A stretch of DNA of 25,492 nucleotides from a virus. This document shows, piece after piece, positions 307-17,717 of the stretch. The translations under genes were made by a program, and so were the position numbers. The notes beneath the pieces are model-generated. The model saw only the letters and a program-made list of their open reading frames with translations. It was not told the origin of the DNA and searched no databases. Position 1 is the stretch's first letter; every line of letters begins with the position of its first letter. The stretch spans positions 1 to 25,492 of IMG/VR virus record IMGVR_UViG_3300043778_000126; one strand, 5' to 3'.

Positions 307-2859
307 TCAGGTGATTCGATAGTCGGTGACCGGAGAAGCGTATATGGCGTCGCGCATGTCGATCACGAGCGAGCACCAGGGAGGAGCGGCCGGCCCCTGA
401 AAGAGCGGCGTCGCCTGACCAAAGCCGGCAAAGAGCGCGGTGCCGGGCGGGAGCAACGTGATCCCGGTCGTCACGAATGGGACGGTGATCACCGTAGCAA
501 CTTGGCTTGGCTGTCCGAATCCGCGAGCTAGGAAGCTCGCTGGCGGCAGCGAAGTCTCAAAGACCGCGGGCGAACGCAGGATGAACGCCGCCGGCTGAAG
601 CGGCACACCGATGAACAGCGCCCCCATTGGAGGCAGCTCGCCACGCGGCGCGTGCTGCACGGCGAACATGATCACCGGAGGCTGTGCAGCTTGACCGAAG
701 CCGCGCGCCAAGAGCGGTACCGGCGGCAGCGCGGCTGCTGCTGGCGGGATCGTCTGGTAGACCGCTGCCACCGCGGCGATCGTAGGCACGACGCCAGCGC
801 TAAGGCTGCCCGCTGGCGGGGGAGCCGTGACGCTTGGCAGGACTTGCGGAGAATAGACTGCGGGGGCCTGTGCGGGCTGCCCAGCGCCGGCGCGGACGGT
901 TACGTTCGGCGGCAGTTCGACCCAAGGTGCGAACCTGGCTGCCGAGTAGACCGGGGGCACCGGGAGCAGTATTTGGCCAGCGCCCGCCGACAAGATCGGC
1001 ACAAAGAAGCGTTCGGCGTTTGCAGGCAAGCGCGGCGCGCTGATCACCGTCGCGGACTGAGCGGCTTGTCCGAAGCCAGCAAAGAGCGCTGCCCTGGCGG
1101 TCTCGACCGGACGCAGCACCTCTGCCGAGCGCAGAATCACGGGCGATTGCGCCGGAAGACCGAATCCTGCGAATGTGGCGCCCTGCGGTGGCAGCTCCGC
1201 GCGAGGCGCGTTCGTGGGCGCGCTGACGACGGCGCCCACCTGTGCAGGCAGACCAAAGCCGGCCGCTATCGAGCCGCGCGGCGGCAGCTCCTGCAACTGC
1301 ACGACCGTGGCATGGGCGACGATCCCGGAGGTTGTCGCTGGAGGTATCACACCAGCGAACCACGCAGGCGTCGTTGTCGATGCTGGAGCGGGCGCCGATG
1401 AAGCAAGCGCAATCGTAGCGACTTGCGCCGCGTTACCGAAGCCCGCAGCGAGTGCGCCAAGCGGCGGCAGACTCGCGAACGGAGCGATCGGCGAACCGAG
1501 GATGACCGCGGGCTTAGCGGCCTGTCCGGCGCCAACGAAGAGAGCCGGCGCCGTTGCTGTAGCCCAGGGCCGAGGATGCGGGACGCTGACTACAGAGGCA
1601 ACTTGGGCTGCCGCGCCGAAGCCGGCGAACAGGGAGGCAGGCGGCGGCAGCGCGGCCGATGGCGGCACAACAGACCCCGCGATCACCGGCGCCTGCGCCG
1701 CCTGACCCGCTCCGGCTATGATAGTCGGGCGATGCGTCGTTGGCGCCGTAGGAGCGAATGCAAACGCGATCGTCGCAGCGGTCGGCGATGCGACCGAAAC
1801 GCCCAGGAAGAGGCCAGGACCGACAGGAGCCGGCGCCTCATCGGGTAGGAATGCGCTCGCGATGCCGGAGCCGACGACGCCGGGGTCGTTCGCGCTTCCC
1901 GCGTACAGAGCAGGCGCGGGCGCCGCAGGAAGGGGCACATTCGGCGCGCTGATTTGCGCAGCGACCCCGGCCGCCGCGGCAGCGAGCACGCCTGCGTAAA
2001 TGGTCGGCGCACTGGCCGGCAGATAGTTCGCGGCCCGCTCGCGCGTTTGGATGATCGCCGGCGCCTGCGCCGCCTGACCCGCTCCCGCGAAGACTTGAGG
2101 TAAGGGCGGCGGTAGGTACGCCGTTCCTTTCTCACCGCGGACTATTACGGGAGGCTGCGCGGCTTGCCCGGCGCCCGCGAAGCTCTTTGGCGTCAAATAT
2201 CGGGGCGGCTCCGGCGGCAACCCGTTCGTGATGATCGTCGAGGCCACGCTGGGCGCGGGCTCGATGACAAGCACATAAGTGTGATACTCGAGCGAGCCGG
2301 TGAGCTCAGCAAGCGACAGAACACCGGTCGCACCGGGGCTCATGTTCTGCTTGTAGAAAGCGCTGATCTTGTACGGCTGAGAGTTCGTGCTCGCCGTGTC
2401 GAGCGTCAAGCCAGAGCTGCCCGCAGTGACCGGATCTTGGCCGACCACGCCGCAGATGAGAGTCGCGCCCGAATTGACGACATTGACACTGATGGTCGGT
2501 ACCGCAGTGCCAGTAGGGGAAAGCTGGAAATTAGTGGAAGTCGCACCGAGCGTGCCGCCCGCGGCGTTCCACGATTCGATGACGGAGCCCGAGATCGTGC
2601 TGCCCGTCGCGCTGACTACAATGTTTGCGCCAACATCGCCCGCGACGGCTTGCTTGGCAAAAACGTAGGCGTAGTTTGCACCGTCGTTCTGAGCGCCCAC
2701 CAACGACCATGCGGTCGTGACGGTCGGAATCGTCGCGCCCGCTCCGCCGCCGATGAACCAGATGTAGACGACGATCACATCGCCAGCGGCGATCGTGCCG
2801 GGCGTAAGCGTGTTGCTTCCGCCGCTGCCAGGAACGCTGGAGCGAAGCGGGATTGTCAC
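307..2859 (-). CDS. 850-aa virion-type protein with about 19 degenerate 30-residue repeats
   Basis: Starts at GTG (2859-2857), overlapping the stop of the 64-aa gene as GTGA. Residues 1-205 form a Gly/Thr/Val-rich, beta-predicted domain with no signal peptide. Residues about 211-820 are a chain of some 19 imperfect repeats of about 30 residues, each with the core LPPxxxLFAGFGQAAQ followed by a short hydrophobic strand (VI or II). Several units have diverged: one near residue 300 is Ala-rich and one near 340 is longer. Residues 821-850 form a unique C-terminal tail. Composition is dominated by Ala, Pro and Gly, with few charged residues. The gene lies downstream of the head and connector genes, next to an SGNH hydrolase, so a fibre, spike or capsid-surface role is likely. 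I do not recognise the repeat family. Confidence 0.85.
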   Translation of the reverse strand: MTIPLRSSVPGSGGSNTLTPGTIAAGDVIVVYIWFIGGGAGATIPTVTTAWSLVGAQNDGANYAYVFAKQAVAGDVGANIVVSATGSTISGSVIESWNAAGGTLGATSTNFQLSPTGTAVPTISVNVVNSGATLICGVVGQDPVTAGSSGLTLDTASTNSQPYKISAFYKQNMSPGATGVLSLAELTGSLEYHTYVLVIEPAPSVASTIITNGLPPEPPRYLTPKSFAGAGQAAQPPVIVRGEKGTAYLPPPLPQVFAGAGQAAQAPAIIQTRERAANYLPASAPTIYAGVLAAAAAGVAAQISAPNVPLPAAPAPALYAGSANDPGVVGSGIASAFLPDEAPAPVGPGLFLGVSVASPTAATIAFAFAPTAPTTHRPTIIAGAGQAAQAPVIAGSVVPPSAALPPPASLFAGFGAAAQVASVVSVPHPRPWATATAPALFVGAGQAAKPAVILGSPIAPFASLPPLGALAAGFGNAAQVATIALASSAPAPASTTTPAWFAGVIPPATTSGIVAHATVVQLQELPPRGSIAAGFGLPAQVGAVVSAPTNAPRAELPPQGATFAGFGLPAQSPVILRSAEVLRPVETARAALFAGFGQAAQSATVISAPRLPANAERFFVPILSAGAGQILLPVPPVYSAARFAPWVELPPNVTVRAGAGQPAQAPAVYSPQVLPSVTAPPPAGSLSAGVVPTIAAVAAVYQTIPPAAAALPPVPLLARGFGQAAQPPVIMFAVQHAPRGELPPMGALFIGVPLQPAAFILRSPAVFETSLPPASFLARGFGQPSQVATVITVPFVTTGITLLPPGTALFAGFGQATPLFQGPAAPPWCSLVIDMRDAIYASPVTDYRIT
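400..2229 (-). repeat. Array of about 19 diverged 90-bp coding repeats
   Basis: This part of the 850-aa gene encodes residues about 211-820. The units are about 90 bp, in frame and not identical at DNA level. The protein core is LPPxxxLFAGFGQAAQ. The most regular copies are FAGAGQAAQPPVIV, FAGAGQAAQAPAII and FAGFGLPAQSPVIL. The divergence suggests old duplication under selection rather than recent slippage. Confidence 0.85.
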
Positions 2860-3050
2860 GTCGATACCGCGGGCTGCGCTTCGATCTCGAGGTCCTCATG
2901 CTTGACGCTGGCATGCGTACCATCGTCGAATTGCACGCACACACCCGCCGCCGGTACAGTCATCGCAACTTTGCCGCGCTTGCCCTTGTGCTCTCCGGTG
3001 TGCACGTGGACTCGCTTTTCGAGATCTGCAGGTGTGAACTCGATCGTCAT
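2856..3050 (-). CDS. 64-aa KOW-like small protein
   Basis: The ATG at 3050-3048 overlaps the stop of the SGNH hydrolase gene (TAATG), and its own stop overlaps the GTG of the repeat-protein gene. A longer reading from 3080 is possible but lies inside the hydrolase gene and lacks the coupling. The protein starts MTIEFTPADLEKRVHVH. Its middle, GEHKGKRGKVAM, has the G-x-x-K-G-x-x-G spacing of KOW-like small beta-barrels, followed by VCVQFDDGTHASV, which could form the closing strands. Such folds bind nucleic acid or act as structural modules in phage proteins. The function here is unknown. Tight coupling on both sides suggests coordinated production with its neighbours. Confidence 0.75.
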   Translation of the reverse strand: MTIEFTPADLEKRVHVHTGEHKGKRGKVAMTVPAAGVCVQFDDGTHASVKHEDLEIEAQPAVST

Positions 3051-3691
3051 TAGATGATGCTCCGGATCGTAGTCTCCCAAGCACTCGCCGCGCTCACGCC
3101 TTGCGCCGTGGTGATGTGCGTGCCGTCCGACTGCCCGGGCGTGCCCACAATTGTGAACAGGTCAACGATCGCTGCATCGGCCACGCTCGCCTGATTCGCT
3201 ACGAGCAAATTGTTCCAAGTCGTCACAGTCGCAGGGTTCAAGCTGTTACGCGGAATGCAGTTGGAGACGATGATTTTAACGCCAGGGTTCGCAGCTCTGC
3301 GAGCCGCGACATAGGTTTGCAGGTTGCCCAGCAGCGTCGCAGGCGGCGTGCCTGCCAAATAGAGGTCGTTCGTCCCGCCCCAAAAGCAAATGATATTCCA
3401 AGGCTTCGTGCCGTCGTACGCTGGGTCAACGTGCGTCGCCGCATCGTTGATCATGTCGGGGTTGATCTTCCAGCCGCCGACCGCGGTGTTGACCCAGGTC
3501 ACGCTCGTGTTGGCATTGGCCAAGCTATGCAGCGGAGCGGTGACCGTCACATCGAACGTGCTATCGGCGCTGTTGTAACCAGCGCTCAGCGAGTCACCCA
3601 CGCCGATGATTTTTCCGAGCAACGTCCCAACAAACGGATGAAGACGGCTGCCAGGAACCACGCCGACGAGAGGCTGACGAGCACCGACCAT
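3050..3691 (-). CDS. SGNH/GDSL-family hydrolase (esterase/deacetylase-like)
   Basis: 213 aa. The SGNH blocks are in order: GDSLS at residues 32-36 (nucleophile Ser34), a Gly in VGGW at 72-73, GGTND at 105-109 (oxyanion Asn108), and DGTH at 189-192 giving the Asp189/His192 pair. All catalytic residues are therefore present. Family members remove ester-linked groups such as acetyls from polysaccharides or lipids. The length is normal for a single SGNH domain. No signal peptide is visible, as expected for a virion-borne enzyme. It sits among late accessory genes and is coupled to a KOW-like protein and a repeat protein, which suggests a capsule- or LPS-modifying virion enzyme. The substrate cannot be read from the sequence. 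Confidence 0.85.
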   Translation of the reverse strand: MVGARQPLVGVVPGSRLHPFVGTLLGKIIGVGDSLSAGYNSADSTFDVTVTAPLHSLANANTSVTWVNTAVGGWKINPDMINDAATHVDPAYDGTKPWNIICFWGGTNDLYLAGTPPATLLGNLQTYVAARRAANPGVKIIVSNCIPRNSLNPATVTTWNNLLVANQASVADAAIVDLFTIVGTPGQSDGTHITTAQGVSAASAWETTIRSII

Positions 3692-3703: not shown

Positions 3704-4069
3704 TCAGTTCAGCCCGAGCGTGATCGCAATGCCGTTGGCCTGAAGGTAGTCGAACGACGAGCGCAGGACCTTGTCGCGCAACCGCTCGCCGGTGAGCAGC
3801 GACGAGCCCGGCATCGAGTCGCTGAGCGTTCCTCGACGCACCGTCATCAGGCACACGCCGAGCGCTGGAATGTTGCCGTCCGCTTTCGCCAGGTTGGTAA
3901 AAGCGATCACCAAGATCGGAAGCGCACCCTCGGCCCACTTCACGAAATAGTCGGCGCCCTTGCACTCGGGAATGTCCTCGAGCGCGCGACGTGCGATGTC
4001 GATCGCTTCCTGCTCGAAGCCTGGCGGCACTGCGAGCGGGCTCATGCGCGGCGATTCGGGCGCGCTCAT
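3704..4069 (-). CDS. 121-aa phage protein of unknown function
   Basis: The ATG at 4069-4067 overlaps the TGA of the upstream zinc-motif gene (ATGA), which supports this start. A second ATG eight codons later is an alternative. The protein starts MSAPESPRMSPLAVPPGFEQ and has a mixed helical middle with an IPECKGADYFVKW segment and a hydrophobic strand PILVIAFTNLA. The C-terminal part, GERLRDKVLRSSFDYLQANG, looks helical. No signal peptide or transmembrane segment was seen. I do not recognise the family. Coupling to the upstream zinc-motif gene suggests the two act together. Confidence 0.75.
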   Translation of the reverse strand: MSAPESPRMSPLAVPPGFEQEAIDIARRALEDIPECKGADYFVKWAEGALPILVIAFTNLAKADGNIPALGVCLMTVRRGTLSDSMPGSSLLTGERLRDKVLRSSFDYLQANGIAITLGLN

Positions 4070-4647
4070 TCTGTCATTCCGAGCGGCGGCGCGGCCTGCA
4101 TGACGATCGCGGCTCGCACGGGCGCCTCGACCTCCGGAGAGTCGTCTTCGACGTATTGCTCGGAGCCGATGGCAAGGATTACGATTTCGATTCCGCCGAA
4201 CTTCGCGCCGAGGTCGTCGCCCTTGGCGGTGACGTCGATGCGGCACTCGGGGAACATGGCGCACTGAGCCAGGATGTATGCGCCAGCTGCGGAGAACTGC
4301 GCCGATGCCTTGCGTATGCGGTCGGCCTTCTCCTGAGTCATCTTCGTTTCGCGGCGCGTCTGCGTGCCGAACGTGGCGCCTCCAGCGGCTTCGCCGAGCG
4401 TCACCGTCTCGGCGGGAACCCAGCGGAAATTGAGCGGGTCGCACTCGCCGACGTTGTGGCGGTTCAGCGCGTTCTCGATGCCGCAGTGAGCGGCACAAAG
4501 GCCGCTGCGAACGGCGTCGCAATGCGCGCAGCCAACGACCGCCGACTGATGCGTGGAGCAGCGCTTGCGGGCAACGGTGTTGCAGACCGCGCAGTCGCGC
4601 TCGTCAGACAAAGACTTCGGACCGATGTACTTAAAAGACCATTCCAT
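4066..4647 (-). CDS. 193-aa protein with two tandem CxxC-x7-CxxH zinc-binding motifs
   Basis: The ATG at 4647-4645 follows the purine-rich stretch GAGGGAAG. The N-terminus carries two copies of one spacing: C19-x2-C22-x7-C30-x2-H33 and C40-x2-C43-x7-C51-x2-H54. The copies are similar (CAVCNTVARKRCSTH and CAHCDAVRSGLCAAH), so this looks like a duplicated small zinc finger. Residues 103-193 form a separate mixed alpha/beta part starting MTQEKADRIRKASAQF. Zinc fingers of this size bind nucleic acid or protein, but the target is unknown. The gene stands alone after a terminator-like hairpin and is coupled to the following 121-aa gene. A later start at Met103 would drop the zinc part. The unbroken frame and the coding-like cysteine spacing argue for the long form. 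Confidence 0.75.
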   Translation of the reverse strand: MEWSFKYIGPKSLSDERDCAVCNTVARKRCSTHQSAVVGCAHCDAVRSGLCAAHCGIENALNRHNVGECDPLNFRWVPAETVTLGEAAGGATFGTQTRRETKMTQEKADRIRKASAQFSAAGAYILAQCAMFPECRIDVTAKGDDLGAKFGGIEIVILAIGSEQYVEDDSPEVEAPVRAAIVMQAAPPLGMTE

Positions 4648-5251: not shown

Positions 5252-5398
5252 TCAGCGCGCGCGAGGCGGACGTGGAACGATGAGCGCGGCGCGCTTCGTC
5301 GGCGCCGGCCGCATTGGCAGCTTCGGCACCGGATCGGGATTGCGCTTCACGCGCTTCGGAACAGCGGGGGGCGCGGCGGGTTTGGCTTTGGTTGTCAT
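5252..5398 (-). CDS. 48-aa basic proline-rich peptide
   Basis: The ATG at 5398-5396 overlaps the TGA of the gp10-like gene (ATGA). The frame encodes 48 residues: MTTKAKPAAPPAVPKRVKRN, then Pro- and Arg-rich sequence ending PRPPRAR, stop TGA at 5252-5254. About a quarter of the residues are Lys or Arg and about a quarter are Pro, so it is probably disordered and could bind nucleic acid or an acidic partner. It sits between the tail-completion protein and a structural protein. Start/stop coupling and G+C-rich third positions favour a real gene. Confidence 0.6.
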   Translation of the reverse strand: MTTKAKPAAPPAVPKRVKRNPDPVPKLPMRPAPTKRAALIVPRPPRAR

Positions 5399-5916
5399 TG
5401 AGAGTTTCCGCTAGAGCCGTTGCCCACTTGGTGGGTTACGCTCTTCCACATTTGGCCGCCGTCGATCAGCGGTGTTGAGCTGCCCTTGCGCTCGATCGTC
5501 GACTCGGCGTTTGCAGGCTCGATGCCAGCCTTGATGCGCGCTTGGATGCGGCCGACGAAGAGCAAGCCCACGCGATTGAGCGCAGTCGTCATGTCGGGCA
5601 CGGTGCCCTTCAGGACCGCTGCAGCCGACTTCCTCAGCGCGGCGCGGTTCTCTTCGACATTCTCATCAGCCCAATCGACGATGAACGAGCGCCGAGGCGG
5701 ATTGCCTTCGGGCTTCGATTCCGTCGGCGGCCCGCCGAACTCGTTGAACGCAGCTATCTCGATCAGCGTCGCGTCGTCGCTGCCCTCTGCGGCTTGCGCG
5801 CCCTCGGCCTCGTGGATGCCGACCGTCAGATTCTGACCGGCCGCCATCTTGCGCAGGCGCGCGATCATCGCGTTCGCGCCGCGGTCGACGCTCGTGATCT
5901 TGACCCCGCGCGCCAT
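5395..5916 (-). CDS. HK97 gp10-like tail-completion / neck protein
   Basis: 173 aa, ATG at 5916-5914. Features typical of the HK97 gp10/virion-morphogenesis group are an N-terminal basic helix with NAMIARLRKMA, a strand TVGIHEAEGA, the NEFGGPP segment (residues about 58-64), the PPRRSFI strand (about 73-79), a long helix with VGRIQARIKAGI, and a C-terminal TPLIDGGQMWKSV motif that matches the family's TPLxDTGxLxxSI ending. Proteins of this group cap the tail end or form the head-tail stopper. The position after the DUF4054 connector is as expected. The C-terminal tail is Ser/Gly-rich. Confidence 0.8.
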   Translation of the reverse strand: MARGVKITSVDRGANAMIARLRKMAAGQNLTVGIHEAEGAQAAEGSDDATLIEIAAFNEFGGPPTESKPEGNPPRRSFIVDWADENVEENRAALRKSAAAVLKGTVPDMTTALNRVGLLFVGRIQARIKAGIEPANAESTIERKGSSTPLIDGGQMWKSVTHQVGNGSSGNSQ

Positions 5917-7006: not shown

Positions 7007-7996
7007 TCAGCTGAAGTCGATGTATCGGCACGCTTGCGGCTGATACACCTTCACGCCGCCGACGCGCGACACGCACGGCACGACCATCTCGGTCCCGCGC
7101 GCTTGGGGCGGCAGCTGCTCGAACGGCAGCGGCAAGACGCCCTCGAGCACCGTGGGGTCGAGCTTGTACACGAGCCCGCGATCTGCACCGGACGCGCCCG
7201 CGGCGTTTCCGCGATACCACATCTCGACGCGCTTGATCCAAGGGCCGTTCTTGACCAGCCACTGCAGCGCCGTCACCGTCGCGGCGTCGGTACCGTACGG
7301 CGTCTCTGCGAGGATCGTGTACATGCTCGTCGGCAGCACCAGCGTGTCGGGAATGAACGACTGGTTGGAGGCCACCACAATCGTCTGCACAGCCTTGTTG
7401 ATGTTGGCGATCATCGTCGCCGCCGTGGTCGTGCCCATCACCCACTTGGACAGGGCGACGGTGCCCAGCCCGAAGATGTCGGTGTTATTCAGCAAGCCGA
7501 GCAGACCGCTGCCCGCCACGCCGCCAGCCTGCGTGTCGGTTGCGCCGGTCGACAGGATGCTGTCGATTTCGCGCGCGATCGTCTCGCGAGCCGCCTGCAC
7601 GCGCATTTCGCTGAGCGGGATCTGAAGCCGCGCGGCAAGGCGCATCTCGAAGAGCTCCCAGCCGTAGGAAGCGCCGACCGTCTTCAGCACGCCGTAGCGC
7701 TCGGTCTTCGACACGTCCACGCGCGGGATGTCGTCGCTGCCGTCGGCGATGATCTTCGCCTGGCCTACGTGGTCGAGCACGTAGTAAACGTACTGCTTCA
7801 CGTCGGGCGAGATATCGTTCGCGAACGGCATCAGGTTCTGTGCGAGCAGCGCCGCGTAAACGACGTTGAACACCTTCGCGCGGATCTGCGTGATCTCGCG
7901 CTCCACGAACGCGGTCTCATTCGCGTCGAGGCGCTGGCCCTGCATGTCGGTGATCTTGGCCAGTGAGCTGCGAAGCTCGGATCGGAAATGGTCCAT
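7007..7996 (-). CDS. Major capsid protein, DUF2184-like HK97 fold
   Basis: 329 aa, ATG at 7996-7994 with an AAGGAAG ribosome-binding site. A helical N-terminal arm (to about residue 70) precedes the body. Motifs seen are YVYYVLDHVGQAKII (residues about 69-83), PRVDVSKTERYGVLKTVG, a helical spine with ARLQIPLSEMRVQAARE, GLLNN, and a late PDTLVLPTSMY strand. This order matches the DUF2184 group of phage major capsid proteins. About 160 bp of hairpin-rich DNA separates it from the cement-like gene, and scaffold, protease and portal are upstream, which is the usual head order. The N-terminus lacks a long delta domain, consistent with a separate scaffold domain in the protease polypeptide. High-level synthesis is expected from the strong RBS. 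Confidence 0.85.
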   Translation of the reverse strand: MDHFRSELRSSLAKITDMQGQRLDANETAFVEREITQIRAKVFNVVYAALLAQNLMPFANDISPDVKQYVYYVLDHVGQAKIIADGSDDIPRVDVSKTERYGVLKTVGASYGWELFEMRLAARLQIPLSEMRVQAARETIAREIDSILSTGATDTQAGGVAGSGLLGLLNNTDIFGLGTVALSKWVMGTTTAATMIANINKAVQTIVVASNQSFIPDTLVLPTSMYTILAETPYGTDAATVTALQWLVKNGPWIKRVEMWYRGNAAGASGADRGLVYKLDPTVLEGVLPLPFEQLPPQARGTEMVVPCVSRVGGVKVYQPQACRYIDFS

Positions 7997-8704: not shown

Positions 8705-9352
8705 TCAGGCCGTCTTCGGCGTCCGCCACGCCTCGTGGAGGTTCTTGTGCATCGCGGCGCGCGCGTCGAGGACGAGCTTGTCGTCCTTGTCGATCGCGTC
8801 CACGCGCTGCACATGGCGCAGGGTGTTGACCACGCTATCGATCCCATCGCTGCGCGTCACGCCGGCCTTGCAGACCGAGTCGAAGATCGCGGCGATGTAG
8901 TCGTCGCTCTTCTTGTCGAGCGGCGTGCCGTCGCCGGCGAGCCCATCGGTGTACTTCGCATCGGTGCGAATCACCTTCTCCTGGAGCTGGCGATCGGTCA
9001 GCAGGTCGAGCGAATCCTCGAGGGCGTCCATTTTGTCCTCGTCCTCGTCGTCATCGTCCGAGGCCATCAGGCGGATCGCGCGGCGCAGCAGCTTGTTACG
9101 GCTGCGGCGGCGCGCCTTGGTCTTCTCGCCGTCCTTCTCTTCTTTCAGGTCTTCGAGCGACTTCTTCGCGTCGGTGCGCGCCACGTCGCGATCGGCTTCC
9201 GCCTTGTCGCAGCGGCTCGTCAGCTCGGTCACCTTGGCGTTGAAGGAGGCCACCGTCGCGGCGTGCCCCTTCTCGAGGTGCTCGAGGTGCTCCTCCGAGC
9301 CGAAGTTGATGTTTTTGCCATCGAGGCGAATAACGCGAACGGGATCGGTCAT
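8705..9352 (-). CDS. Possible separate 215-aa scaffold from an internal start
   Basis: An in-frame ATG at 9352-9350 (residue 444 of the fusion) is preceded by GGAG (9364-9361) with 8 nt between, a good ribosome-binding site. It falls at the boundary between the DUF2213 part and the charged coiled-coil region. The product would start MTDPVRVIRLDGKN and consist only of the scaffold-like domain. The arrangement parallels phage lambda, where Nu3 is made from inside gene C. The placement at the domain edge argues for real use, though no expression can be shown here. Confidence 0.5.
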   Translation of the reverse strand: MTDPVRVIRLDGKNINFGSEEHLEHLEKGHAATVASFNAKVTELTSRCDKAEADRDVARTDAKKSLEDLKEEKDGEKTKARRRSRNKLLRRAIRLMASDDDDEDEDKMDALEDSLDLLTDRQLQEKVIRTDAKYTDGLAGDGTPLDKKSDDYIAAIFDSVCKAGVTRSDGIDSVVNTLRHVQRVDAIDKDDKLVLDARAAMHKNLHEAWRTPKTA

Positions 9353-10681
9353 GATGATGTCTCCAGCGGCTGGGGCCTCGACGCAGTAGGCGTCTCTGGC
9401 GTCGAGGCGGAGCGCGACGTCAGTGCCGGCTCGCCCTTGTCCTTTGCGCAGCACCGCTACGTGATTGTAGCGAATGCCTCTCTGTATCGCGTCGTACGGC
9501 TGACCCTTCCAAGTTCCGGGCGTGTGCTCGAGCTTGCAGCGGTAGCCCGCTGAGATGTCGTGCAGCTGCCGGTTCTCGATCGCGGCCACGGTGCCCGGAT
9601 CGTTGATCACGAGCTCGGCGCTGATGAAGTCGCCGTCCTGGCGTACTTGCTCGGTGTGGCCGAGCGTCGCGTTTTTCCAGTTGCTCGTGTCGAGCATTCC
9701 CACGTGGTGGTGAATGTCGGTGACGGTCGCGCCGTTGAGCGTGGCCAGCGAATCGGCCTTGAACACTTCCTCGGGCAACCGGAGCTCGCGGCGGATCGAG
9801 CCGTCGGGTTTTCGGTACTGCAGTACGCCGATCTTGCTGATGCGTGCCTTGACGCGGATGCCGCCGACCTGCGTGCGCTCGAACTCGGAGACGGAGCCCA
9901 GGAAATCGAAGCGGCTCTCCAGCTCGGCGTCGTTTGCGTCGGTGCGTTCCGCTGGCGTCGTCTTGCGCGCCGAGCGCAGCATGCGAGCGGCCGAGATGAT
10001 CAGGTCGCGGTTGCGGCCTTCGCTTTCGGCCTTGATCGCGCCGCAGACTTTGGCGGCCGTTTCCTCGCTGCCGTACTTTTTCATTTGGTCCGACATGCAG
10101 TCAGACCAGGGATAATCGGCGCGGAGCTTTGAACGCGTCTTGCAGCCGCGACAGGACTCGGTCTCGTGGGCACGCGCGGCGATTGCCGGCGTTACGTCGT
10201 CGTCATCGGCGCCTCCACCGACCAGGCCATCTTCGTCAGCGGGCACGGGCACGAAGGAAACCTCGTTGAGCTCGGGCTGGTCGACGATGCGCGTCCTGAC
10301 GCCGCCGCGATCCTCGTAGCTCACATTGCCGCCGCCCCAGCCGACGCTGATGCCGCGCACGATCCCCTCGCGAGTGGCCTGGAAGACTTGCTCGGCCATT
10401 GGGTTCGCCTTCTCGCTGGCGAACTTCACGCGCATCTTCAGGCCGTCGGGACCTGATTCGATATCGTGCGCGGTGCCGATGGGCATGCTCTTGGCATCGT
10501 GGCCCCAGAGCACCACGGGATTCTTCGAGAAGCGCTCGAGGTTCCAGTTGCCGCTGAGCACCTCGGGCACGCCATCGGCGGCCGTCACGGCGTTAGTGGT
10601 CGACGCCATCACCGGCACCGAGCGCGTGGATTCCTCCAAGGCCCCGAGATCGTACCCGCGCGAGCCCTTGAGTGCGTTCAT
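8705..10681 (-). CDS. Fused double prohead protease plus scaffold (HK97-type + DUF2213-type)
   Basis: 658 aa in one frame, ATG at 10681-10679. Residues about 15-160 look like an HK97-family prohead serine protease: NPVVLWGHD with His61, a long helix, then GISVGW with Ser112, and a strand ending LNEVSFVPVPAD. Residues about 165-220 hold four cysteines (C177, C180, C195, C213) and the segment YPWSDCMSDQMKKYGSEET. Residues about 255-440 match DUF2213: SIRRELRLPEEVF, DIHHHVGML (His324-326), then LHDISAGY with Ser377 and IRYNHVAV. Residues 444-658 are charged and coiled-coil-like with an acidic Asp/Glu run, as in scaffold proteins. Both protease halves keep their His and Ser. Such proteases cut scaffold and capsid subunits during head maturation, then themselves. 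Most phages carry one protease, so the pair is unusual. Confidence 0.8.
   Translation of the reverse strand: MNALKGSRGYDLGALEESTRSVPVMASTTNAVTAADGVPEVLSGNWNLERFSKNPVVLWGHDAKSMPIGTAHDIESGPDGLKMRVKFASEKANPMAEQVFQATREGIVRGISVGWGGGNVSYEDRGGVRTRIVDQPELNEVSFVPVPADEDGLVGGGADDDDVTPAIAARAHETESCRGCKTRSKLRADYPWSDCMSDQMKKYGSEETAAKVCGAIKAESEGRNRDLIISAARMLRSARKTTPAERTDANDAELESRFDFLGSVSEFERTQVGGIRVKARISKIGVLQYRKPDGSIRRELRLPEEVFKADSLATLNGATVTDIHHHVGMLDTSNWKNATLGHTEQVRQDGDFISAELVINDPGTVAAIENRQLHDISAGYRCKLEHTPGTWKGQPYDAIQRGIRYNHVAVLRKGQGRAGTDVALRLDARDAYCVEAPAAGDIIMTDPVRVIRLDGKNINFGSEEHLEHLEKGHAATVASFNAKVTELTSRCDKAEADRDVARTDAKKSLEDLKEEKDGEKTKARRRSRNKLLRRAIRLMASDDDDEDEDKMDALEDSLDLLTDRQLQEKVIRTDAKYTDGLAGDGTPLDKKSDDYIAAIFDSVCKAGVTRSDGIDSVVNTLRHVQRVDAIDKDDKLVLDARAAMHKNLHEAWRTPKTA
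9361..9364 (-). promoter_or_regulatory. Internal Shine-Dalgarno GGAG for the scaffold start
   Basis: CTCC on the plus strand reads GGAG on the transcribed strand, 8 nt before the internal ATG at 9352-9350. This is the evidence that decides the internal start. Confidence 0.5.
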
Positions 10682-16241: not shown

Positions 16242-17717
16242 TTACAGCGCGCCAGATCCAGGCTCGATCCCAGCGCTTCTAGCGAAATCTCCCCAGCGCT
16301 TGCGAATGACGTCGCAATAGCCCGGGTCGAGTTCGATCAGCCGAGCGCGGCGTCCGGTCCGAGCGCAGGCGATCAGCGTGCTGCCGCTGCCGCCGAACGG
16401 GTCGCCGACAAGTGCGTCGGGCTTCGAGCTGTTCTCGATGCAATGCGCGATGAGCTCGGGCGGCTTCATCGTCGGGTGCTCGGTCGATTTCTTGGGCCGC
16501 GGGAACTCAAGGACGCTGTCGAGGGTGCGAGCGCCAGACCAGAAGTGTGGGCCGCTCGGTTCCCAACCGTAAAAGATGGGTTCGTGGCGATAGTGGTAAT
16601 CGCAACGGCCCATCACGAGGCTGTCCTTGAGCCAAATTAGGGTGTGGCGCCAGATGCCAGTTGCGAGCAGCGCATTGCCGAACGCGCCGAACAGCGGCCC
16701 AATTGCCGGCGCTGCGACGTACCAGGAAGCGCCCTTGGAACAGTGCGCTATCGCGGCAGCGAAAGCGGCGTCGAGGAATGCCCGGAGCTGTTCGGGCGAC
16801 AACTCGTCGTTCTTGATGATCTTGCCGCCCTTGGCCTTGCGCTGCGCTGGCGAAAGCGAGTGATTTCCGCCTACGATTTCCACGCCATACGGCGGGTCCG
16901 TCCAAACCAGCGACAACCGCTCGTCGCCGAGCAGCAGCGCCCACGCCTTCTCGTCGGTCGAATCGCCGCAGACCAGCACGTGCGGCCCAAGCTCGTACCG
17001 CTCGCCGAGCTTGCTCTTGGCCTTCTTCGGGACGGGCGGAACTTCATCGACGCCATCGGGCCGACCGCCATCGCCGACCAGACCCTGAAACTGCTCCTCG
17101 GACCAGCCGGCAAGCGACCGCTCCTCAGCCTGCAGCTGCTTCAGCATCTCGAGCAGCGCCTCGGGCTCCCAGTCGGCGCCGAGCTCGTTGTCGGCCAGCG
17201 CCGACAGGTGCGCGTCGTCCTCGCTGAGGTCGAGGAAGCGGCAGGGAACAGGGCCGCCTTTGGCGATGCGCTCAGCGTCGTAGCTCCAGGGCTTGGCCTT
17301 CGGGTCGAGCAGATACGCCGCGTGGAGCACTGGCAGCAGGCGAACGGCCGCGAGACGCGTGTGCCCGGCAATCACCTCGCGGTTGGCAAGGCGCGCGACC
17401 AGCGCAGCACCAAAGCCAAAGCGGATGATGGACCGCGCAACGCCCTCGACCTCGTCCCGCGTCGGCGCCTTGGGATTCTTCGCCCACAGCACCAGAGAAC
17501 CTGGAGCAACCCATTCAGCAGCAGCACCTAGCTCACCGGAATCAGAAGAGATTGCGCGTGCGCGCGTGGCTACGGAAGCGAGTCGCTTGGCCTTCTGCCC
17601 TCTCGCCTTCCCCCTCTTTTCCGGAGGAGAAACCGGAACCGCTTCACCTTTTGCCACCGTCTTGCTCGGTCGCGAAAGGGGAACCGATGCGGCTGGCTTG
17701 CCCGGTTTCGCCTTCAC
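16242..17717 (-). CDS. ParB-like / N6- or N4-type DNA methyltransferase fusion
   Basis: 491 aa, GTG start at 17717-17715, overlapping the previous stop (GTGA). Residues about 70-190 look like a ParB/Srx-type nucleotide-binding module, with GHTRLAAVRLL at 118-128. Residues about 240-480 are a DNA methyltransferase: TDPPYG (DPPY at 274-277, catalytic motif IV), HPTMKPPELI, and the SAM-binding GDPFGGSGS near 438-446. DPPY before FGGSG is the beta-class order of PF01555-like N4/N6 amino-methyltransferases. The N-terminal 60 residues are basic and low in complexity. Phages use such enzymes to protect their DNA from host restriction. No restriction endonuclease is next to it, so it is an orphan methylase. 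The recognition site cannot be read. Confidence 0.85.
   Translation of the reverse strand: MKAKPGKPAASVPLSRPSKTVAKGEAVPVSPPEKRGKARGQKAKRLASVATRARAISSDSGELGAAAEWVAPGSLVLWAKNPKAPTRDEVEGVARSIIRFGFGAALVARLANREVIAGHTRLAAVRLLPVLHAAYLLDPKAKPWSYDAERIAKGGPVPCRFLDLSEDDAHLSALADNELGADWEPEALLEMLKQLQAEERSLAGWSEEQFQGLVGDGGRPDGVDEVPPVPKKAKSKLGERYELGPHVLVCGDSTDEKAWALLLGDERLSLVWTDPPYGVEIVGGNHSLSPAQRKAKGGKIIKNDELSPEQLRAFLDAAFAAAIAHCSKGASWYVAAPAIGPLFGAFGNALLATGIWRHTLIWLKDSLVMGRCDYHYRHEPIFYGWEPSGPHFWSGARTLDSVLEFPRPKKSTEHPTMKPPELIAHCIENSSKPDALVGDPFGGSGSTLIACARTGRRARLIELDPGYCDVIRKRWGDFARSAGIEPGSGAL

Follow-up and report, generated by a model that had tools for sequence, protein, structure and literature searches.

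A 30-residue repeat in an 850-residue phage protein and homologous arrays in two further uncultured phage lineages

The 25,492-bp virus record analysed here in full (the window) encodes an 850-residue protein with a 30-residue repeat, and the locus raises the question of whether this repeat is a protein-level family or an accident of the DNA, and what a phage might do with it. The gene lies at 307–2859, exactly as given in the first-pass annotation, and is encoded on the minus strand; a plus-strand reading of the same interval was rejected because the frame is not open. Its start shares the overlap GTGA with the stop of an upstream ORF (2856–3080), and 3' of the gene an AAGGAG-like site is followed by a further GTG ORF at 296, an arrangement that places the repeat gene in an operon. 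The gene and its parts are as follows.

307–2859, minus strand: gene for the 850-residue repeat protein, GTG start at 2859, TGA stop at 307–309
2245–2859, minus strand: N-terminal domain, residues 1–205, predicted to be β-rich; low-confidence model (pLDDT 48, pTM 0.46) that resembles β domains of phage minor tail proteins
367–2205, minus strand: repeat array, residues 219–831, 20 positions of 30–31 residues (unit HMM, register and autocorrelation)
310–366, minus strand: non-repeat C-terminal tail, residues 832–850 (19 residues), delimited by register

The presence of the 30-residue repeat was confirmed. BLOSUM autocorrelation of the 850-residue protein peaks at lags 30/31 (0.05, against a baseline of -0.57), with harmonics at lags 60/61, and this peak lies above the maxima of all 500 shuffled sequences (-0.35 +/- 0.04, largest -0.18). 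Between residues 219 and 831 we found 20 consecutive positions at a spacing of 29–32 residues, mostly 30–31. Thirteen of them match the unit HMM at E < 1e-5 and the other seven are degenerate, most with weak in-register traces in the HMM, so that the earlier count of about 19 units was a fair one. The units read, in the order of translation:

2116–2205, minus strand: unit 1 (PRYLTPKSFAGAGQAAQPPVIVRGEKGTAY), HMM E 1e-12 and register
2026–2115, minus strand: unit 2, HMM E 9e-14
1933–2025, minus strand: unit 3, degenerate (IYAGVLAAA...), register only, HMM E 1
1837–1932, minus strand: unit 4, degenerate (LYAGSAND...), register, HMM E 0.11
1741–1836, minus strand: unit 5, degenerate (LFLGVSVAS...), register, HMM E 0.64
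1651–1740, minus strand: unit 6, HMM E 3e-13
1561–1650, minus strand: unit 7, HMM E 2e-15
1471–1560, minus strand: unit 8, HMM E 4e-11
1378–1470, minus strand: unit 9, HMM E 9e-13
1288–1377, minus strand: unit 10, degenerate (WFAGVIPPA...), register only
1195–1287, minus strand: unit 11, HMM E 3e-15
1105–1194, minus strand: unit 12, HMM E 7e-16
1012–1104, minus strand: unit 13, HMM E 3e-16
916–1011, minus strand: unit 14, degenerate (LSAGAGQILL...), HMM E 0.04, register
823–915, minus strand: unit 15, HMM E 3e-13
730–822, minus strand: unit 16, degenerate (LSAGVVPTI...), HMM E 0.15, register
637–729, minus strand: unit 17, HMM E 8e-17
550–636, minus strand: unit 18, degenerate (LFIGVPLQP...), HMM E 0.09, register
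457–549, minus strand: unit 19, HMM E 2e-15
367–456, minus strand: unit 20, partial core match (LFAGFGQATPLF...), HMM E 1e-6

The array is flanked, as had been described, by a non-repeat, predicted β-rich N-terminal region of some 205 residues and by a non-repeat C-terminal tail; the length of the latter, previously put at 30 residues, is better given as about 19–30.

If the repeat had arisen by slippage, it should be visible in the DNA. No DNA-level tandem array of the 30-residue period was found within the repeat gene, and the window units share on average 34% identity in protein and 45% in DNA. Where two units carry the same amino acid at the same position, the codon is shared in 40% of cases; the codon usage of the gene itself would predict 36%. 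Across the units, the core [LF]AG[FA]GQ[AP]AQ and the LPP start survive this saturation of synonymous codons. With synonymous sites randomised while the core and LPP start persist, the units must be ancient and conserved as protein, and DNA slippage is ruled out by the absent DNA array and the saturated codons, which bears out the first-pass reading against that origin.

No existing family accounts for the repeat, in agreement with its initial description as unrecognised. The 850-residue protein matched zero families in Pfam, PHROGs and NCBIfam, and the repeat had no match among PDB sequences or 50,697 phage records; none of the cultured phage records matched even with 822 residues of regular array as the query. 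A literature search with the core peptides returned nothing relevant, and a single-protein scan of viral contigs, for which the chosen peptides lay outside the repeat core, confirmed no relative. Relatives were found by scanning IMG/VR with a degenerate DNA pattern for AGFGQ[AP]AQ. The scan returned 24 stretches, four loci from three contigs being true arrays and the rest isolated cores; the pattern matches L031, L032 and L058–L060 were discarded, as no array is present there. Further viral scans gave no fourth lineage with an array. Genomes from 84,980 species of bacteria and archaea yielded 17 pattern stretches, none of which was confirmed, and the 24 matches from a second pattern scan of these genomes were all isolated single cores, not arrays. 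Because the DNA pattern selects for the core, it is register, LPP flank and copy number that serve as independent evidence. An HMM built from the window units only scored the relatives' arrays at 219 and 173 bits, whereas shuffled sequences of the same composition reached at most 3.7 bits and reversed sequences fell below zero. Homologous arrays occur in two further uncultured phage lineages:

IMG/VR 3300028800_000175 (L006/L028), 41-kb contig: frame of 907 residues, still open where the contig stops, with at least 22 units
IMG/VR 3300044796_000662 / 3300045923_000041 (L030/L029), contigs of 363 kb (loci L007/L022/L030) and 126 kb (loci L005/L029): near-identical gene, 2773-residue ORF, at least 39 units

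The 363-kb contig is that of a jumbo phage and forms one lineage with the 126-kb contig. Over 460–670 residues the relatives' proteins are 30–34% identical to the window protein, whose array has the in-register 30–31-residue units, AG[FYA]GQ[AP]AQ core and LPP start of the family. Likewise, L028 and L030/L029 carry units of 30–31 residues in 22 to 39 or more in-register copies, but their core is more regular than that of the window (LPPxDY..AG[FY]GQ[AP]AQ). Taken over 74 anchored cores, the family consensus is L-P-P-x-[DPQ]-[YSA]-[VIL]-[FYL]-A-G-[FYA]-G-Q-[PA]-A-Q-x-[AP]-x-[ILV]-[VYF]-x-P..., and in the regular arrays a second PP pair stands a few residues ahead of the next unit. Pro makes up 15–21% of the arrays, Ala 11–23% and charged residues 5–9%. 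The 2773-residue relative had zero Pfam families, and the L028 protein gave a single weak PHROG match, to phrog_34250 (a family of unknown function; E 7.5e-5, 37 residues, no stretch passing alone). Only the jumbo-phage protein has extra domains between its units, four of about 200 residues with a β pattern, and some of its units contain an internal insertion (the L030 loop). Upstream of a common junction, the near-identical giant genes diverge abruptly (L030 at about 3555, L029 at about 213; GGGCTTCGGTGCGCCG); beyond it L029 runs on into repeat-like sequence and L030 joins another gene, which reflects either an assembly collapse or a real deletion.

The relatives' proteins differ from the window protein in ending in a conserved domain of about 120 residues, which is 66% identical between L028 and the jumbo-phage protein; the gene after the repeat protein opens with a weak copy of it. 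The domain had no match among the window ORFs, and the window protein ends in its 19-residue tail. L028 and L030 share the gene after the repeat protein at 84% conservation. This gene, which lies directly behind the giant repeat gene, is a homologue of the protein annotated as head-tail connector in phage Tunturi_5 (28%, E 3e-16), where the connector stands ahead of genes for minor tail protein, tail terminator and sheath. On its other side the giant gene is preceded by phrog_240 head proteins. The N-terminal domain and the C-terminal tail had been proposed as the anchor points of the array, and this is only partly supported: the C-terminal domain that the relatives conserve beside the head-tail connector gene would be the better candidate, and it is absent from the window protein.

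Two further observations concern the surroundings of the giant gene. The phrog_240 head proteins upstream of it in L030 (674–1084 and 1980–2363) are two paralogues, with counterparts in L068, another relative. A volactin-type actin (PF25216) is encoded in L030 (17014–18027, E 2.5e-74), L028 (8303–9334, 1.3e-73) and L068 (15433–16518, 3e-70), in conserved order near the giant repeat protein; the volactin family takes its name from the archaeon Haloferax volcanii.

In L068 the positional counterpart of the giant gene (9632–10351) is a 240-residue ORF, set in synteny between a phrog_240-like protein and the connector homologue. It has the shared C-terminal domain, an unrelated Gly/Ser/Leu-rich low-complexity N-terminal part and no 30-residue units. 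The array is thus a module that can be taken off an anchor that stays in place. This slot, and the wide variation in unit number, are also what one would expect if the array were filler under little constraint, a polymorphic tail of low complexity that lengthens and shortens and does little by itself. However, the retention of core and spacing while synonymous sites are saturated calls for purifying selection; the filler reading is contradicted by the codon analysis and we regard it as very unlikely.

The window itself offers a virion-type context, as the first reading had it, in that the repeat gene follows capsid, neck and GDSL-esterase genes. In the order of minus-strand transcription the genes encode a replication-initiation-like protein, a ParB/methylase fusion, terminase, portal (PF06381), a head morphogenesis protein, an S78+DUF2213 protease, capsid (PF09950), small proteins, a neck protein, a GDSL hydrolase and the repeat protein, after which a small ORF is cut by the contig end. 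Because the contig ends just downstream of the repeat gene, the tail genes are out of view. The structural neighbours are:

7007–7996, minus strand: major capsid protein, family match (PF09950)
5395–5916, minus strand: neck / tail-completion protein (phrog_222, E 1.5e-37)
3050–3691, minus strand: GDSL/SGNH hydrolase, possibly a surface-polysaccharide esterase (PF13472, E 1e-13)

Passages in the phage literature describe virion-associated SGNH/GDSL esterases that act on host polysaccharides in other phages (e.g. PMC8471582, PMC9569702), and by analogy the GDSL neighbour would fit an adsorption module. Three further minus-strand ORFs deserve mention in their own right. The ORF at 8705–10681 encodes a single 658-residue protein with a Peptidase_S78 prohead-protease domain (residues 56–152) and DUF2213 (residues 269–425), that is, two head-maturation-protease modules in one protein. 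At 16242–17717 a ParB-like domain is fused to an N6/N4 DNA methylase, and at 4066–4647, between the neck gene and the GDSL hydrolase, lies a 193-residue ORF with a Cys/His-rich N-terminal half and no family match.

We then considered what form the array might take. The units had been thought to look like a repeating structural motif, a view that, by the refuting condition set with it, fails for the monomer as predicted: four regular units of the jumbo-phage relative's array were modelled by AlphaFold2 as a single chain from a shallow 16-row alignment, and the model has no fold and no secondary structure (pLDDT 49, pTM 0.13), which speaks against a monomer solenoid. FoldIndex was positive for the array because the charge is so low, and composition alone therefore does not predict disorder.

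A single-chain model is blind to multi-chain folding, and the units might stay unfolded until at least three chains come together, and then form a new, rigid β-structured fibre shaft of the kind known from adenovirus, reovirus or phages. The strict 30–31-residue register over 20–40 units in three lineages would suit such a shaft, as would the alternation of aliphatic and aromatic positions, the invariant Gly and the phage appendage setting. The triple β-spiral shafts of adenovirus fibre and reovirus sigma-1 are short tandem repeats in a viral attachment protein, as the array may be. They have a 15-residue period, however, whereas none of the three arrays rises above the autocorrelation baseline at lags 14–16 and the consensus differs, so that a triple β-spiral is disfavoured. 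The lack of this sub-period also counts against the proposed new shaft, as do the high Pro content with PP pairs in each unit, the tolerance of the window array for degenerate units and the inserted loop in an L030 unit. We consider assembly into such a shaft unlikely.

The cores may alternatively act as stickers, with aromatic-Gly-Gln motifs weakly cohesive enough to form a gel or phase separate, as a particle coat or an intracellular body. The array resembles the FG-repeat nucleoporins in its regularly spaced Phe-Gly cores, low-charge chain and absence of a predicted monomer fold, and a conserved [FY]AG[FY]GQ[AP]AQ core between variable Pro-rich spacers, with the fraction of charged residues at 5–9%, is what cohesion through stickers would look like. 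FG-nucleoporins, however, have FG motifs with hydrophilic spacers, whereas the array spacers are hydrophobic and rich in Pro, Ala and Val, and on this composition we rejected the assignment to an FG-nucleoporin-like class. The array differs from them as well in its strict 30–31-residue period and its phage virion context, and GFGQ is often GAGQ: in about 40% of anchored window units Ala replaces Phe in the GFG position. Since the gene is also placed among virion genes, the sticker-and-spacer explanation strikes us as distinctly unlikely.

We also modelled the N-terminal region of the window protein together with two units, the other alignment rows being domains of the jumbo-phage protein. Foldseek against predicted viral structures gave 23 matches at E < 1e-3; the named ones are from tailed phages, and several, including mycobacteriophage proteins, are called minor tail proteins. 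Among the best were minor tail proteins with a β domain of about 200 residues from the Mycobacterium phages Hawkeye (X2KSL9), PP and Stubby (E 9e-6 to 1e-3, TM about 0.5), whose two-lobed β fold the window domain may share; these proteins have no detectable sequence similarity to the window protein and no evidence of a 30-residue array. Against the PDB no fold match was obtained below E 0.1, and the domain had no PHROG and no significant sequence match to phage records. Comparison with the interspersed domains of the jumbo-phage protein by HMM and hhalign gave nothing significant; the aligned pattern is similar. Given the pLDDT of 48 and alignment rows taken from the relatives' domains, the resemblance of the predicted N-terminal domain to β domains of phage minor tail proteins is suggestive only.

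On balance we slightly favour a role for the repeat protein as a virion appendage of a tailed phage, with an N-terminal β domain on a long Pro/Ala-rich tether; its presence in the particle, the tether role and N-terminal binding are what we infer from the evidence above. A minor-tail-type β domain would be carried on the 20-unit, almost uncharged array, which, having no stable single-chain fold, could be a long, flexible and extensible tether or, once assembled, the shaft of a fibre. The tether would hold the β domain off the particle, where it may bind or dock to the cell surface or to glycans around it. Selection would maintain the spacing and the motif LPP-x(3)-[LV][FY]AG[FY]GQ[AP]AQ-x-[AP]-x-[IV] and let the spacers drift, and unit number would change between phages with unit length conserved.

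Phages are already known to carry modular appendage proteins with repeats, and the 30-residue repeat is a new family among them; T4 Hoc, for example, joins a conserved C-terminal capsid anchor to a string of variable Ig-like domains (PMC10385173). The relatives' proteins may be built analogously, from a conserved C-terminal domain and a variable modular N-terminal string in a virion-surface context. In contrast to Hoc, however, the modules here are 30-residue and Pro-rich with no predicted fold, there is no Ig-fold or capsid-binding evidence, and the genes lie nearer the neck and connector. A bolder and unlikely proposal is that the arrays represent a virion polymer of a class new to phages, with an aromatic-Gly-Gln sticker every 30 residues of a Pro-rich uncharged chain, common to an ordinary tailed phage and jumbo phages; it would either adopt a new fibre fold on oligomerisation or surround the head-tail region as a brush that is both cohesive and extensible.

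A repeat family absent from Pfam, PHROGs and NCBIfam is now defined, and it ranges from the phage of a 25-kb contig to a 363-kb jumbo phage, in which at least 39 units make up part of a 2773-residue protein adjoining a head-tail connector gene. The L068 slot without units shows that over 2000 repeat residues can be added to or removed from a surface protein of a phage while its anchor stays the same, and this contrast provides a clean setting for asking whether the purpose of the array is reach, adhesion or assembly.
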